A DNA stretch of 34,748 nucleotides from a virus: the IMG/VR virus record IMGVR_UViG_3300042154_000420, positions 1 through 34,748 of that record; one strand, written 5' to 3'. Position numbers and translations under genes: made by a program. Positions 16,641 through 25,991 of this stretch are shown in pieces. Under the pieces are notes generated by a model. It was not told the origin of the DNA. It saw only the letters and a program-made list of their open reading frames with translations, and did not search any database. How positions within the stretch are numbered: position 1 is the stretch's first letter; each line of letters starts with the position of its first letter.

Positions 16641-16804
16641 GTGCTGGTCTCCATTCGGGTTTTCAAGCGCTCCAGCATTGTTTTGACAACGTATGCGCGG
16701 CTTTTAACCTCATAAGGCATTGCGTGGCCAAAGACTTCTGGGTGCAGCAAGTCATTGACCAGATCAAGGCAGGCATCAAGGGCTGGTGGTAGTTCATTGT
16801 TCAC
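16625..16804 (-). CDS. 59-residue helical protein, GTG start
   Basis: Starts at GTG 16804 with GGAG eight bases upstream, and ends at TAA 16627-16625. The product (LPPALDACLDLVNDLLHPEV ... YEVKSRAYVVKTMLERLKTR) is a regular amphipathic helical protein with normal codon use, so it is more than chance. Its GTG follows immediately, with no gap, after the stop of the overprinted frame at 16805, and overlaps the methyltransferase end by 11 bases. Function unknown. Confidence 0.72.
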   Translation of the reverse strand: MNNELPPALDACLDLVNDLLHPEVFGHAMPYEVKSRAYVVKTMLERLKTRMETSTWPEA

Positions 16805-17618
16805 TTAAGATTCTCCATGCTGTGGCTGCGCACAATGGCACTTGGCCATTTCCAATGGCTTTAAGTCTGTCCACCCTAGCGGCCACCCCATCAGCCACTC
16901 GACCCACACTGGGTTCAGTGGCCCACCAGCCTGTGCCGCTAGGGGGATTTCGTTCCTCTTGTACTCCGAGGGATTTCCACCGTCTTTGTGCATTCTGGAC
17001 ACTGGTGTTGGCCAAAGTCTGGGATTGTTCACTTGGTCCACCAGTCTGATTTGTACGGGCTGACCATTCGCTCGATGATTCTTGCCTTGCTTGAGTATTC
17101 CAGATGTCCCCCCCCCCCCCGTGTCGGGCGTGCGCCACAATCCAGATGCGGTCGCGCTGGTGCGGTGCGCCAATGTCGGCAGCTCCCATAACATTCCATT
17201 TCGAGTCATACCCGAGACTGGAAAGGTCTCCAAGGACTCGCCCGATTCCTCGATGAATGAGCATTGGGCTGTTTTCCACAAATACAAATCTGGGTCGAAT
17301 TTCGCTAACCACCCGCGCCATGTGATACCACATTGAGGAGTTTTCTCCATCAAGCCCTGCGCCTCTGCCGGCAATGGAAATGTCGGTGCATGGAAAGCCG
17401 CCAGATACGACATCAACAATGCCTGCCCATGGCTTCCCGTCAAAGGTTTGAACGTCATCCCAAATCGGGAAAGGCGCGAGAATGCCGTCATTTTGTCTGG
17501 CGCACAATACGCTAGCTGGGTATGGCTCCCACTCGACTGCGCAGACTGTGCGCCATCCAAGGAGCTTGCCTCCGAGTATTCCTCCACCAGCGCCTGCGAA
17601 AAGAGCCAGCTCATTCAT
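16794..17618 (-). CDS. dcm: DNA (cytosine-5) methyltransferase
   Basis: 274 residues from ATG 17618 (AAGGA five bases upstream); the in-frame ATG at 17624 overlaps that site. C5-methyltransferase motifs appear in order: I, ALFAGAGGGILGG; IV, VVSGGFPCTDIS with the catalytic Cys; VI, FVENSPML; VIII, PHQRDRIWIVA; IX/X, RVADGVAARVDRLKAIGNGQ. The region between VIII and IX, which sets target specificity, is short, and the total is less than typical (about 320). It would methylate phage DNA to evade host restriction. A G13 run sits right after motif VIII, and a second frame covers the whole gene. Confidence 0.92.
   Translation of the reverse strand: MNELALFAGAGGGILGGKLLGWRTVCAVEWEPYPASVLCARQNDGILAPFPIWDDVQTFDGKPWAGIVDVVSGGFPCTDISIAGRGAGLDGENSSMWYHMARVVSEIRPRFVFVENSPMLIHRGIGRVLGDLSSLGYDSKWNVMGAADIGAPHQRDRIWIVAHARHGGGGDIWNTQARQESSSEWSARTNQTGGPSEQSQTLANTSVQNAQRRWKSLGVQEERNPPSGTGWWATEPSVGRVADGVAARVDRLKAIGNGQVPLCAATAWRILSEQ
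16805..17614 (-). CDS. Overprinted frame coextensive with the methyltransferase
   Basis: 269 codons on the same strand as the methyltransferase, shifted by +1, without a stop. Its ATG 17614 forms an ATGA overlap with the upstream stop, the standard junction here, and lies nine bases after AAGGA. Its TAA (16807-16805) touches the GTG of the next gene. The translation begins MSWLFSQALVEEYSEASSLD and ends in LNPVWVEWLMGWPLGWTDLK, with a WPTP motif; I recall very similar sequences as stand-alone phage proteins, but have not checked. Either a truly dual-coded gene or a conserved by-product of methyltransferase motifs. No biochemical function can be named. Confidence 0.55.
   Translation of the reverse strand: MSWLFSQALVEEYSEASSLDGAQSAQSSGSHTQLAYCAPDKMTAFSRLSRFGMTFKPLTGSHGQALLMSYLAAFHAPTFPLPAEAQGLMEKTPQCGITWRGWLAKFDPDLYLWKTAQCSFIEESGESLETFPVSGMTRNGMLWELPTLAHRTSATASGLWRTPDTGGGGTSGILKQGKNHRANGQPVQIRLVDQVNNPRLWPTPVSRMHKDGGNPSEYKRNEIPLAAQAGGPLNPVWVEWLMGWPLGWTDLKPLEMAKCHCAQPQHGES
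17108..17120. repeat. Homopolymer of 13 C (13 G in the coding strand)
   Basis: Thirteen consecutive C on the + strand, read as four Gly codons plus one base in both overlapping minus-strand frames. Runs this long are unstable in replication and are classic sites of slipped-strand phase variation; they are also error-prone in sequencing. Another run of eight C is at about 25911-25918. Confidence 0.97.
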
Positions 17619-17892
17619 CACCATCCTTAAAATTAGCCAAAGCAGTCACTTCAATGTGGTCCACCATGGACTGCAAAAGCAAGTGGGCAATGTCCACATT
17701 ACTGCTGGCGATGTACGCGTTATTAAGGGCCATGCACTCTTCAATATCTGGCTCATAGGGCGCGCCATAGGAATCTGTCGAGCCTTTCTCTTCTGGGCTG
17801 TATTCCAAGAAGCAGACCAGATCGACATCTTCTACTGAGCAGGCAAACTGGAATAAGTCTTTTGGGCATGGGGGTGTGGCTGGGTAGTTCAT
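17611..17892 (-). CDS. Small acidic protein upstream of the methyltransferase
   Basis: 93 residues. Strongly acidic with several Cys (CSVEDVDLVCFLEYSPEEKG, PYEPDIEECMALNNAYIA), ending ...ALANFKDGDE. The C-terminal helix VDIAHLLLQSMVDHIEV is regular. Its start overlaps the previous gene as ATGA and its stop overlaps the ATG of the overprinted frame. No family recognised; acidic phage proteins of this size can be DNA mimics, which is speculation here. Confidence 0.68.
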   Translation of the reverse strand: MNYPATPPCPKDLFQFACSVEDVDLVCFLEYSPEEKGSTDSYGAPYEPDIEECMALNNAYIASSNVDIAHLLLQSMVDHIEVTALANFKDGDE

Positions 17893-22177: not shown

Positions 22178-24319
22178 ATGTCTACAGAATTTCTGGCCGC
22201 CAAGGCCCATCCCTCCTACGCAGCAGCGGTAAACATTGCCAATGCCTGCCCAGAAGCGCTCTTCTGCGGCTTTAAAACCAAACCCAAGGCAGACGGCACG
22301 CACGCCAAAATCCCCGTCTCAAAGACTGGCGCTGGAGTCGGTGCTGACATTGACCAGGCTTTGCTGGTGAGCTGCGCAGAGCTGGCCCAAATGATTGAGC
22401 CGCCACAGCACTGCGAATACTGGGGCATCTTCATGCAAAACCGCATGACCTTTGACCCGTTCAATGAGCTGGTCCTGACCATCCTTGACCTAGACACCAA
22501 GCGCTCAACCGCACCACGCGACATCCGCATGGTCAAGCTCATGGATTTGGCCAAAGAGCATGGCCTCTTGACCGAGCGAAGCCACAGCAAGAAGGGCGGC
22601 CACATTATTTTCTTGGCCAAGCCTGACCAGAGCCTGCCTCCCAAAATAGACCTTGGCAATCACCAAGAGGTGGAAATCTTTGGCCACCCTGGCAGCGCAG
22701 GCAAGAACGTCATGCTCACTGGGGACTCCATGCGCGGTGAGATTATTGAGATCAACTGCACAGTCAAAGAATTCTTGGCCCAAGCCGGCATCCAAATTCA
22801 AGAGCCAGAAGTCAAGCAGCCATCACAGTCATTTGACTTCACACAAATGCTCTCAAGAGGCGGCCAAAACGACTTCGACCGAGCCTTGGAGGCGCTTGAG
22901 CACATCAGCCCAGACATTGATTACCCCGACTGGATCGCCATCGGTCAGGCCCTGCACTCAGAGTTTGGAGAGCAAGGCAAAAACGCCTGGTATCACTGGT
23001 CAGCCAGTGGCAGCAAATACCAAGGCGAGAAGGACCTAGACGGCCACTGGAAATCATTTGGCAAGAAGGATGGCGTAAGCCTTGGCACTCTGTACAAACA
23101 CGCCAAGGACCATGGGTGGCAGCCACCGACAAAGACCTCAGAGCGAAAGTCAGCCGTTGAAGACTTTGGCATCAAGTACATGGACCAGCCCCAAGCGCCC
23201 AAGGAAGCTCCAAAGACCAGATGGCAGCCTATCCCTCTTAACCTTGGCCACCTAGAGCCAGTCGATTACCTGATCAATGGCTTCATTGCCCACAGTTTCT
23301 CGGTCATTGCCGGTCAGCCTGGTGTGGGCAAGACCACGGCCATGCTGTCCATTGCCTTGATCGCGGCAGGCTTTAAGGTTGGCGACTCAGAGATCAAAGC
23401 CGAAGCCCGTAGAAAGATTATCTATGTCTCTGAAGACACGGCCCAAGTTAAAAGGTCTCTGTACGCATATTCAAAGCACATGGATATATGCGCAATTGAA
23501 TTGAATGATTATTTTGTACTGATTGAATCAATCAGATCAACAGCCGATGAGGTTATTGAGCTTGCGCATAATGTTATTGAGAACACGATTAACAATGAGC
23601 GCCCATGGGTGATTATCGACACGGCCAATGCCACGCTGGATATTGAGAATGAAAATGACAATAGTCAGGTCGGTGCATTCATGGCAGCGCTCAAGCAGAC
23701 CATATTTACAAAGCTCAACACATCGATCTGCATCATCACGCACACGGCCAAGACCATGTCTAAGGAAGACGACAGTGCCATGGCCCGTGGAGCTTCAGCC
23801 TACACTGGAGACGCGACGCTGACAGCTGTGCTTTTCATGGATGAGGAAAACAACAGATATCTTCGCCTCATAAAGACGCGCTATGAGCCAGTCTTCAGAG
23901 AAATCCTACTCATTAGCCACATTCACCACGAGGCCGTCATCAACCGCCACGGCAATATGCAAGATGTCAATTGCGTGATTGTCTCGCCCCAAGCCTCCAG
24001 CGCTGAAGATCGCAAGCTGGCTCAGATCGATAGGATCAACGATACAAAGCAGCAACGCATCCAGGATAAATGCGACAAGGCCGTCATGTTTGTCCAGAGC
24101 CTGATCAACAAGCACCAGCAAGTGATCATCAGAAAAGGCAGCCATTGCCCCAAAACGCCACCACCAGAATTGGCCAGTTTTTACCAATTGGAGTGGTCTG
24201 AGATTTACCAGAACGTGCCAGGCGCTGACAGAAGTGATGTCAAAAAGGCGGTCGGCACGGCCATCTTTCACAACTTCAATGACACCGAATTGAGCAATTT
24301 ATGGGTGCAATTGACATGA
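22178..24319 (+). CDS. Bifunctional prim-pol primase / RepA-like helicase
   Basis: 713 residues. The N-terminal third is an archaeo-eukaryotic primase-like domain: LTILDLDTK (about 100-107, metal-binding Asp pair), SHSKKGGHIIF with the His motif, VEIFGHPGSAGKNVMLTG. A PriCT-2-like linker follows (DYPDWIAIGQALHSEF, YHWSASGSKYQGEKD). The C-terminal third is a RepA/DnaB-type ATPase: Walker A GQPGVGKTTA (about 378), PWVIIDTANATLD (Walker B), ICIITHTAKTMSKEDDSAMA. It should open and prime the origin. No DNA polymerase gene accompanies it, so host polymerase is presumably used. Confidence 0.9.
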   Translation: MSTEFLAAKAHPSYAAAVNIANACPEALFCGFKTKPKADGTHAKIPVSKTGAGVGADIDQALLVSCAELAQMIEPPQHCEYWGIFMQNRMTFDPFNELVLTILDLDTKRSTAPRDIRMVKLMDLAKEHGLLTERSHSKKGGHIIFLAKPDQSLPPKIDLGNHQEVEIFGHPGSAGKNVMLTGDSMRGEIIEINCTVKEFLAQAGIQIQEPEVKQPSQSFDFTQMLSRGGQNDFDRALEALEHISPDIDYPDWIAIGQALHSEFGEQGKNAWYHWSASGSKYQGEKDLDGHWKSFGKKDGVSLGTLYKHAKDHGWQPPTKTSERKSAVEDFGIKYMDQPQAPKEAPKTRWQPIPLNLGHLEPVDYLINGFIAHSFSVIAGQPGVGKTTAMLSIALIAAGFKVGDSEIKAEARRKIIYVSEDTAQVKRSLYAYSKHMDICAIELNDYFVLIESIRSTADEVIELAHNVIENTINNERPWVIIDTANATLDIENENDNSQVGAFMAALKQTIFTKLNTSICIITHTAKTMSKEDDSAMARGASAYTGDATLTAVLFMDEENNRYLRLIKTRYEPVFREILLISHIHHEAVINRHGNMQDVNCVIVSPQASSAEDRKLAQIDRINDTKQQRIQDKCDKAVMFVQSLINKHQQVIIRKGSHCPKTPPPELASFYQLEWSEIYQNVPGADRSDVKKAVGTAIFHNFNDTELSNLWVQLT

Positions 24320-24573
24320 CCAAAAGCGCAACTCAAATGGCCCAGGTTCAAGCCGCAAAGTCGGGGGGACGAAGGGACAGTCCCGTCGATGGTCTCCTCG
24401 GTCTCGTCGATTCAATTGCTCGGAGTGTATTGTCAGATATGCACACTTTTGTGTGCATTCTGACATCACGCATGAGAGTTTTTTTGGTGTCAAAAGTCGA
24501 AGGGACGGAGGGACGAAATGCTATAGGGCGTCCCTTCGACTTTCGGGTGTTTTTAGGAGCAAATCATGGTTGA
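24316..24573 (+). CDS. Doubtful ORF across the hairpin/iteron region
   Basis: 85 codons from ATG 24316 (ATGA overlap with the primase stop) to 24573. Its translation (TQMAQVQAAKSGGRRDSPVD, then SDMHTFVCILTSRMRVFLV) looks irregular and its DNA is made largely of inverted and direct repeats. It may be chance read-through of a non-coding control region. The junction is the only argument for it. Confidence 0.3.
   Translation: MTKSATQMAQVQAAKSGGRRDSPVDGLLGLVDSIARSVLSDMHTFVCILTSRMRVFLVSKVEGTEGRNAIGRPFDFRVFLGANHG
24431..24465. repeat. Inverted repeat with TTTT loop
   Basis: TGTCAGATATGCACAC, loop TTTT, GTGTGCATTCTGACA: fifteen pairs with a single bulged base. A strong cruciform/hairpin candidate. 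A T run occurs only 14 bases later, so it is not a normal terminator. Confidence 0.85.
24496..24540. repeat. Perfect 12-bp inverted repeat
   Basis: GTCGAAGGGACG (24496-24507) and CGTCCCTTCGAC (24529-24540) around a 21-base loop that carries a further GGGACG unit. Confidence 0.88.
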
Positions 24574-24865: not shown

Positions 24866-25248
24866 AACGCAAAAGAAAAAGCATTGAACACATTGACCAG
24901 GTCAAGGTGGTGCAACACTTTCGCGCTTTCTATCCGGACATCATCATTGCAGCAATACCCAATGGAGGCGATAGAACGGCCTCAGAGCGCGTCAGATTGC
25001 ATTCTGAAGGGGTTTTAGCAGGGATGCCTGATCTTTGCGTCTTAGAGCCTAAAAACGGGTTTCATGCGTTATTTGTGGAAATGAAGACCAAGGCCGGTGT
25101 GGTCTCAGCCAAACAAAGCGCTGTGGGTTTGCAGTTAAATGCAAAAGGGTATCGGTCAGTGGTCGCCAGATCAGCAGCTGATGCAATCAAAACAATCGAG
25201 GAGTATCTGAATGGCAAAACCAAAGAAGAGTGCAAAGACATTGAGTGA
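24850..25248 (+). CDS. VRR-NUC domain nuclease
   Basis: 132 residues from ATG 24850. Motifs: AAIPNGGDR, LHSEGVLAGMPDLCVLEP with the catalytic Asp, ALFVEMKTKAG with E-x-K, and SAKQ. This is the single-domain VRR-NUC fold (PD-(D/E)XK), as in phage Holliday-junction or flap nucleases. It likely resolves replication or recombination intermediates before packaging. GAGG stands only one base before the chosen ATG, so the exact start is uncertain, but the next start would cut into no conserved motif. Confidence 0.88.
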   Translation: MVVDLKRKRKSIEHIDQVKVVQHFRAFYPDIIIAAIPNGGDRTASERVRLHSEGVLAGMPDLCVLEPKNGFHALFVEMKTKAGVVSAKQSAVGLQLNAKGYRSVVARSAADAIKTIEEYLNGKTKEECKDIE

Positions 25249-25726
25249 GCTGGCTGACAACATTGCAGAGCGCCAGCTCACACTGCGTGACCAGGCTGCA
25301 ATTGATCGCAAAGAGATGTCAGGAATCAATAAGAAAATTCACGCCTTTGGCGGTGAAGCCATGCTCTTTGACCATATCTCACAAGGGAAAACAACCGATT
25401 CAGTGATTAAGTCTCTGGACATCAGCATCGGTGGTTTCTACAAATGGATCGAAAAAGATGCGAAGCGGGGAGAACTCCTCGCACGCGCACGCACGCGAGG
25501 TGGCAGAAGTTTAGCAGAGCAGACCCTCGAAATCGCAGACGGGGCAAGCCCTCAAGAGGCACAAGTGGCCAAGCTGCGGGTCGATACAAGGCGCTGGCTG
25601 GCCTCCAAACAAGCGCCAGACGAGTATGGTGACAAGCAGCAACCACTGGTCAACATCGACCTTGGAAGCATGGCGCTCGATGCCCTGCGCAAGCGCAGCA
25701 TCGTATCGGTAGACAGTTCTGAGTAA
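25211..25726 (+). CDS. Terminase small subunit
   Basis: 171 residues, ATG 25211 with GAGGAG about six bases upstream. Contains EAMLFDHISQGKTTDSVIKS, then DISIGGFYKWIEKDAKRGEL (helix-turn-helix), ARARTRGGRSLAEQTLEIAD and VAKLRVDTRRWLASKQAPDE, typical of the Sf6-like small terminase family. It recognises the packaging site on phage DNA and hands it to the large subunit. The large subunit is about 1.3 kb away, separated by the DnaA-box region and five tiny genes. It overlaps the VRR-NUC gene by 38 bases. Confidence 0.88.
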   Translation: MAKPKKSAKTLSELADNIAERQLTLRDQAAIDRKEMSGINKKIHAFGGEAMLFDHISQGKTTDSVIKSLDISIGGFYKWIEKDAKRGELLARARTRGGRSLAEQTLEIADGASPQEAQVAKLRVDTRRWLASKQAPDEYGDKQQPLVNIDLGSMALDALRKRSIVSVDSSE

Positions 25727-25773
25727 ATGAATACCGAAGCATTCAGTCACTTTATACAACGACCATTATGTTA

Positions 25774-25874
25774 AGTGGATAAGTCGTTATCCACAGAATT
25801 AAGTGCATTAAAGTATTACAGACCTACTTATGCACAGGAATCTGTGGATAAAGTTGGCAAAAATCCGTGGATAA
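25774..25874. promoter_or_regulatory. Cluster of five DnaA boxes
   Basis: Perfect matches to TTATNCACA: 25787-25795 (+), 25828-25836 (+) and 25843-25851 (-). One-mismatch copies: 25774-25782 (-) and 25866-25874 (-). The first two form a perfect 8-bp inverted repeat with a 4-base gap (25775-25794). Five boxes in 101 bases is far above chance. Confidence 0.85.
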
Positions 25875-25961
25875 GTCGGTGGTGGCCAGCTGGCGGTCGG
25901 TGGCCGCGACCCCCCCCATGGCCGGTTTGGCGGGGGCGACTGTGGCGGCACTAAACACCTA

Positions 25962-25991
25962 CAAAAAAAATTTTTTAAAAAAATAAAAAAC
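25962..25991. other. A/T-only tract, possible DNA unwinding element
   Basis: About 30 bases, almost all A or T: an A run, six T, another A run, then ATAAAAAA. It lies about 90 bases from the last DnaA box, where an origin would melt. Confidence 0.55.

Follow-up and report, generated by a model that had tools for sequence, protein, structure and literature searches.

A probable host-Xer multimer-resolution site with phased DnaA boxes beside the small-terminase gene of a tailed phage

The window analysed here, a stretch of viral DNA of 34,748 nt, carries an 85-bp end repeat and, given this repeat, is probably a complete circular contig, equivalent to a circle of 34,663 bp. The terS gene for an Sf6-type small terminase occupies positions 25211–25726 on the plus strand (PF20901, 6.4e-19). 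Directly past its stop codon lies a unit composed of a ATGAATACCGAA motif (25727–25738, plus strand), a 28-bp core of the XerC/XerD type (25749–25776) and a cluster of DnaA boxes ending at 25874. The boxes are followed by a G+C block with a C8 run (about 25876–25950, plus strand) and by an A/T tract, A8T6A7 (25962–25990, plus strand); both were described in the first-pass annotation, which had read the locus as a bacterial-type origin, and both are present.

That annotation had counted five DnaA boxes within 101 bp, including three perfect ones and a perfect inverted pair. This count was confirmed; the perfect boxes read TTATNCACA, and the inverted pair consists of R2 and R4. None of the five has more than one mismatch, and 300 dinucleotide-preserving shuffles gave at most two such boxes per 110 bp. 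The three perfect TTATNCACA boxes are the only ones in the 34,663-bp circle. R2 (TTATCCACA, 25787–25795, plus strand) lies exactly 10 bp past the XerD arm of the core, an offset that is constant across the 24 distinct Xer sites compared. R3 (TTATGCACA, 25828–25836, plus strand) follows R2 at 41 bp, start to start, with a constant offset in 92 distinct sequences, and the inverted box R4 (TTATCCACA, 25843–25851, minus strand) follows R3 at 15 bp, start to start. These three are the boxes conserved among the relatives. The box-like sequence R5 (TTATCCACG, 25866–25874, minus strand) is variable; it is found in some relatives, and elsewhere the place is taken by TTGTCCACA or by no box. R1 (TTATCCACT, 25774–25782, minus strand), also box-like, covers the last bases of the XerD arm, is retained in close relatives only and is probably not an independent element. 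Conservation of the boxes in related phages, which had been proposed as a check, is strong, with the same spacing right after terS. Since the boxes are real, occur far above chance and are strongly conserved, recruitment of host DnaA, one of the roles first suggested for them, is likely on sequence grounds.

The alignment revealed a second conserved motif immediately to the left of the boxes, which had been missed: the 28-bp site ACTTTATACAA-CGACCA-TTATGTTAAGT. The XerC arm (ACTTTATACAA, 25749–25759, plus strand) has an inner ACAA that is almost invariant among the 24 distinct sites. The central region (CGACCA, 25760–25765, plus strand) is always 6 bp long and reads CGTCCA, TGACCA, TGGCCA or CGTTCA in relatives. 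The XerD arm (TTATGTTAAGT, 25766–25776, plus strand) occurs in the 24 sites as TTATGTTAAGT or TTATGTAAAGT only, and is thus invariant save for one T/A position; it varies less than the XerC arm, as is usual for Xer sites. The layout is 11-6-11 in 24/24 distinct sites, in keeping with the two 11-bp inverted arms, 6–8 bp apart, of an Xer site. The XerD arms of the Rhodoferax ferrireducens and Bordetella pertussis dif sites served for comparison (PMC2731167): TTATGTTAAGT is identical to the former and TTATGTAAAGT to the latter. In addition, the XerC arm of the window matches that of the Rhodoferax dif (ACTTGATACGA) at 9/11 positions, giving 20/22 matching positions over both arms.

For a genome-wide view, 28-mers were scored against the proteobacterial dif consensus (maximum 21). 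The top or tied-top dif-like 28-mer fell at this place in 20/20 near-complete genomes tested. The core of the window scores 16/21, within the range of the shuffled-genome maxima (14–17), so that the score by itself does not stand out, whereas the site of one relative (G014), with the XerC arm ACTTCGCACAA, scores 19/21, above the shuffles. The case therefore rests on conservation and on the better-preserved relatives such as G014. Together, these comparisons argue strongly for an Xer-type site.

The core and the boxes recur together. In the relatives, the XerD arm is followed by 10 bp, a box, 32 bp, a box, 6 bp and an inverted box; these gaps of 10, 32 and 6 bp are constant in 92 distinct sequences, although the identity of the 32-bp spacer falls to 31% and that of the 10-bp gap to 0%. 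Such fixed lengths despite diverging spacers favour an ordered protein assembly over a sink for DnaA. IMG/VR relatives found through terL or the helicase have the boxes directly after terS, at the same spacing, in every case where the sequence downstream of terS is available. A search with the box pattern recovered the same geometry in phages with unrelated terL, and the geometry of the whole unit is constant across these unrelated terminases.

This second lineage was also retrieved by terS alone, independently of the element, which provided 78 sufficiently covered loci. All of them but L393 (77/78) have a DnaA box with no more than one mismatch at +10 or +51 from the XerD arm, and an inverted box equivalent to R4 is found further out in part of this lineage. 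In 13 loci the Xer site and boxes are inverted together relative to terS and, where checked, to the G+C block, with the internal spacing kept; in 8 of the 13, the +10 box has two mismatches to TTATCCACA. The ATGAATACCGAA motif, on the XerC side, is kept in close relatives, moves with the inverted unit (L336, L357, L365) and is absent in L109. These sequence relationships strongly suggest that the Xer site and the boxes form one unit.

The three-box geometry was also seen in other settings. In a further phage group (L132, L170 and L171), it adjoins a different terS-like gene, without an Xer site. In two Acholeplasmatales MAGs (L094 near 2279 and L099 near 145), a box, 32 bp, a box, 6 bp and an inverted box lie directly beside a dnaA-like gene. 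Four Cytophagaceae MAGs (L097, L098, L100, L101) have the same geometry, which in the three checked is flanked by an HTH gene on one side and by a further conserved gene on the other.

In the related phage ctjtQ328 (MW202879), terS is followed by a serine resolvase gene (PF00239, 6.9e-29), without an Xer site or boxes at that place, whereas the G+C block and the A/T tract are kept. Among 215 loci that include terS and 450 bp or more beyond it, in which some contigs occur twice, 155 carry the Xer site and boxes and no resolvase, 60 carry the resolvase and neither an Xer site nor a DnaA box there, and none has both or neither. The 20 Xer-type genomes searched yielded no resolvase. The exchange requires one change on the terL tree, two on the helicase tree and three on the terS tree; the 215 loci are thus not independent and reflect only a few events, one to three independent swaps. 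Since the Xer unit is replaced in place by a resolvase gene, it is natural to see both as performing one task, the resolution of multimers.

The G+C block and the A/T tract are present in 60/60 resolvase-type loci. Because the block is kept where the Xer site and boxes are absent, it is not tied to the boxes. In the resolvase-type loci, a promoter-like sequence (TTGACA/TACATAAT) stands between the A/T tract and the resolvase gene. More generally, the segment 25876–25990 is common to Xer-type and resolvase-type phages and precedes the promoter-like sequence in many of them. In the window, the fold of the G+C block is no better than that of shuffles (z 0.19), with no Rfam match, and the search for a promoter or terminator at the site gave one weak promoter-like match, as in shuffles, and no good one.

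Replication most likely starts elsewhere, at 24357–24543 (plus strand), under the control of the phage primase-helicase. This probable origin, with GAAGGGAC-type repeats and palindromes, lies downstream of the primase-helicase gene (22178–24319, plus strand; PriCT-2 and AAA/RecA domains by Pfam and PHROGs), whose product is the probable initiator and whose homologue in MW202879 is annotated repA. In relatives, the end of the helicase gene is followed either by TAATGCGGTAG iterons and DnaA boxes, with a helicase allele of 47% identity, or, like the window, by GAAGGGAC repeats together with palindromes; in phages with unrelated terL, this position carries TGTACCGAAAC or TGCACCGAAA iterons. The repeats at 24357–24543 thus differ by helicase allele, as if origin and helicase were swapped together. 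The palindrome TGTCAGATATGCACAC-TTTT-GTGTGCATTCTGACA (24437–24471), conserved within the same helicase allele, is a possible operator or initiator site. Resolvase-type phages retain DnaA boxes beside the helicase gene, and the helicase allele of the window goes with a probable origin that has no DnaA box; in this phage, the boxes after terS may also have a role in replication.

Cumulative GC skew had been proposed as a test of an origin at the boxes. The detrended minimum lies at 24189, at the end of the primase-helicase gene and beside the 24357–24543 repeats, the region that the first-pass annotation itself had named as the alternative that would count against its reading. In 16/17 core-group genomes, the minimum is 1.4–1.9 kb upstream of the boxes, and in the last it is 2.4 kb upstream; the switch in skew that marks a bacterial oriC is therefore not at the boxes. 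Skew carries less weight here than the repeats do, because it rises again after 26 kb and the second lineage lacks the pattern.

These results bear on several other explanations of the boxes. The one nearest to the original interpretation, that host DnaA binds them, melts the A/T tract and loads a helicase at a second, oriC-like origin, has in its favour the density of perfect boxes with an A/T tract close by, the position of the three-box geometry beside dnaA in the two Acholeplasmatales MAGs, and the lack of DnaA boxes in the other repeat region of the window, that of its helicase allele. However, 88 bp of G+C-rich DNA separate R5 from the A/T tract, the tract and the G+C block outlast the boxes in 60/60 loci, 13 loci have the unit the other way round with respect to its flanks, and the switch in skew is 1.6 kb away; the boxes are locked to an Xer site that the first-pass annotation had overlooked, and sister phages live without them. 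We therefore regard such an origin as unlikely. A copy of a host oriC was considered separately and rejected: the exact three-box geometry occurs in only 8 stretches among 84,980 species genomes, none of them proteobacterial. The latter search also bears on the idea that the site is an attP of the IMEX type, by which host XerCD would integrate the phage at the chromosomal dif. In its favour, the arms are near those of Burkholderiales dif sites and no phage integrase was found in 20 genomes, but the centre is CGACCA instead of the TGTATA of dif and, among the 84,980 species searched, no proteobacterial genome carries the three-box pattern and none of the 8 matches is an integrated copy. Phage attP sites described so far have longer centres and degenerate XerD arms (PMC3025954), unlike the 6-bp centre and invariant XerD arm found here, and in the sisters the place is taken by a gene for a small-type serine resolvase, which makes integration by this route very unlikely.

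The position between terS and terL, together with a TTGACA promoter-like sequence past the A/T tract in many relatives, would suit a DnaA-controlled switch of late promoters or a packaging (pac) site after terS. We find this highly improbable, since the unit occurs in both orientations and stays constant across unrelated terL, and since the promoter-like sequence remains where the boxes are absent and the window has no good promoter or terminator at its own site. Titration of DnaA, the second role first suggested, would make the boxes a sink or datA-like element, reducing the free or ATP-bound pool of DnaA and halting host initiation. High-affinity consensus boxes are consistent with it, and a high phage copy number would be expected to titrate DnaA; yet each genome has only three to five boxes, arranged in a single exact geometry bound to an Xer site with which they vanish, and a simple sink would not need exact spacing. 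This explanation is scarcely credible.

We consider instead that the segment 25727–25874 is probably a host-Xer multimer-resolution site with the DnaA boxes as its accessory sequences. Host XerC and XerD would bind the 28-bp core (25749–25776) and, by recombination between two copies of the site within a dimeric or multimeric genome, yield monomer circles. Host DnaA, bound to the phased boxes R2, R3 and R4 from 10 bp past the XerD arm, would serve as the accessory factor, shaping the synapse and conferring selectivity, and in the sister phages their own serine resolvase would perform the same task. The adjacent phased sites expected of a cer- or psi-type system are represented by the candidate DnaA-box sites, and the unit is retained, inverted or missing as one piece. 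A function in multimer resolution is well supported by these comparisons; the part assigned to DnaA is suggested by motif and geometry. From such data we infer that XerCD recombine the site, that DnaA binds and assists, that the host belongs to the Burkholderiales and that the phage passes part of its time as circles, which must stay monomeric. The broader proposal, that DnaA is an architectural accessory factor of an Xer site, forming the synapse through phased boxes by the XerD arm and coupling multimer resolution to host DnaA in widespread freshwater tailed phages, is tentative, and we hold it to be somewhat more apt to fail than to stand.

The gene content is compatible with more than one lifestyle. 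No DnaA (PF08299) was found in 20 genomes, as had been claimed; the companion claim of no DNA polymerase holds for the PolA family (PF00476), the one searched, in 25 genomes. No integrase was detected in 20 genomes, and no ParB or S24 repressor in 25, so that there is no direct sign of a plasmid-like prophage; the circles may be such a prophage, a carrier state or a lytic stage. A small HTH protein weakly similar to phage repressors (18747–18947), which adjoins the SSB gene, is the sole candidate lysogeny regulator seen, and a C5 cytosine methylase gene lies at 16794–17624 on the minus strand (PF00145, 4.4e-32). Searches by DNA similarity gave no convincing plasmid or phage relatives for the element, and at the protein level plasmids offered only remote matches, to terminases and replication proteins. 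The host group suggested by the dif arms is Burkholderiales, perhaps Comamonadaceae. The first published Limnohabitans phages are described in PMC12195039.

Dimers destabilise multicopy circles without partition genes, the rationale given for cer, and this would fit a multicopy circle here. A point against this reading is that headful-packaging phages need concatemers, and resolution would therefore have to be limited in time. Accessory proteins so far known for Xer resolution are ArgR, ArcA and PepA, and DnaA would be a new one; literature searches gave no match for DnaA in this role or for Xer-site use by tailed phages. If confirmed, the arrangement would link replication initiation to multimer resolution, and many integrase-less freshwater phages would pass through circular forms that need monomeric upkeep. 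The loci compared also document a clean exchange, in which a host-dependent site and a phage-encoded resolvase stand in for each other.

Several known systems resemble the unit in part. Phage P1 also keeps its genome monomeric by site-specific recombination, at loxP, but encodes its own recombinase, Cre, whereas no phage recombinase was found here and host Xer is presumed. The attP sites of CTXphi, VGJphi and TLCphi likewise use host XerCD; those phages integrate, whereas here the site is canonical and no integrated copy was found. The gamma-delta/Tn3-type serine resolvase of ctjtQ328 sits at the corresponding position past terS in close relatives, but brings its own enzyme, with no Xer site or DnaA boxes there. 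Burkholderiales dif sites share the 11-6-11 core, and the XerD arm is the same as that of the Rhodoferax or Bordetella dif, but the central hexamer is different and the phage sites have DnaA boxes attached; KOPS matches (23 in total across 20 phage genomes) are too few to judge whether they point to the site. The closest parallels in organisation are cer of ColE1 and psi of pSC101, where a short XerC/XerD core beside phased sites for host proteins lets host recombinases keep a circular replicon monomeric. The accessory proteins are ArgR and PepA at cer and ArcA and PepA at psi (PMC5357621, PMC2409434), and the ColE1 centre is 8 bp long (PMC2731167), compared with 6 bp in the phage site. The accessory sequences of cer lie on the XerC side, which speaks against the parallel; here, in tailed phages, DnaA boxes on the XerD side replace the ArgR, ArcA and PepA sites.
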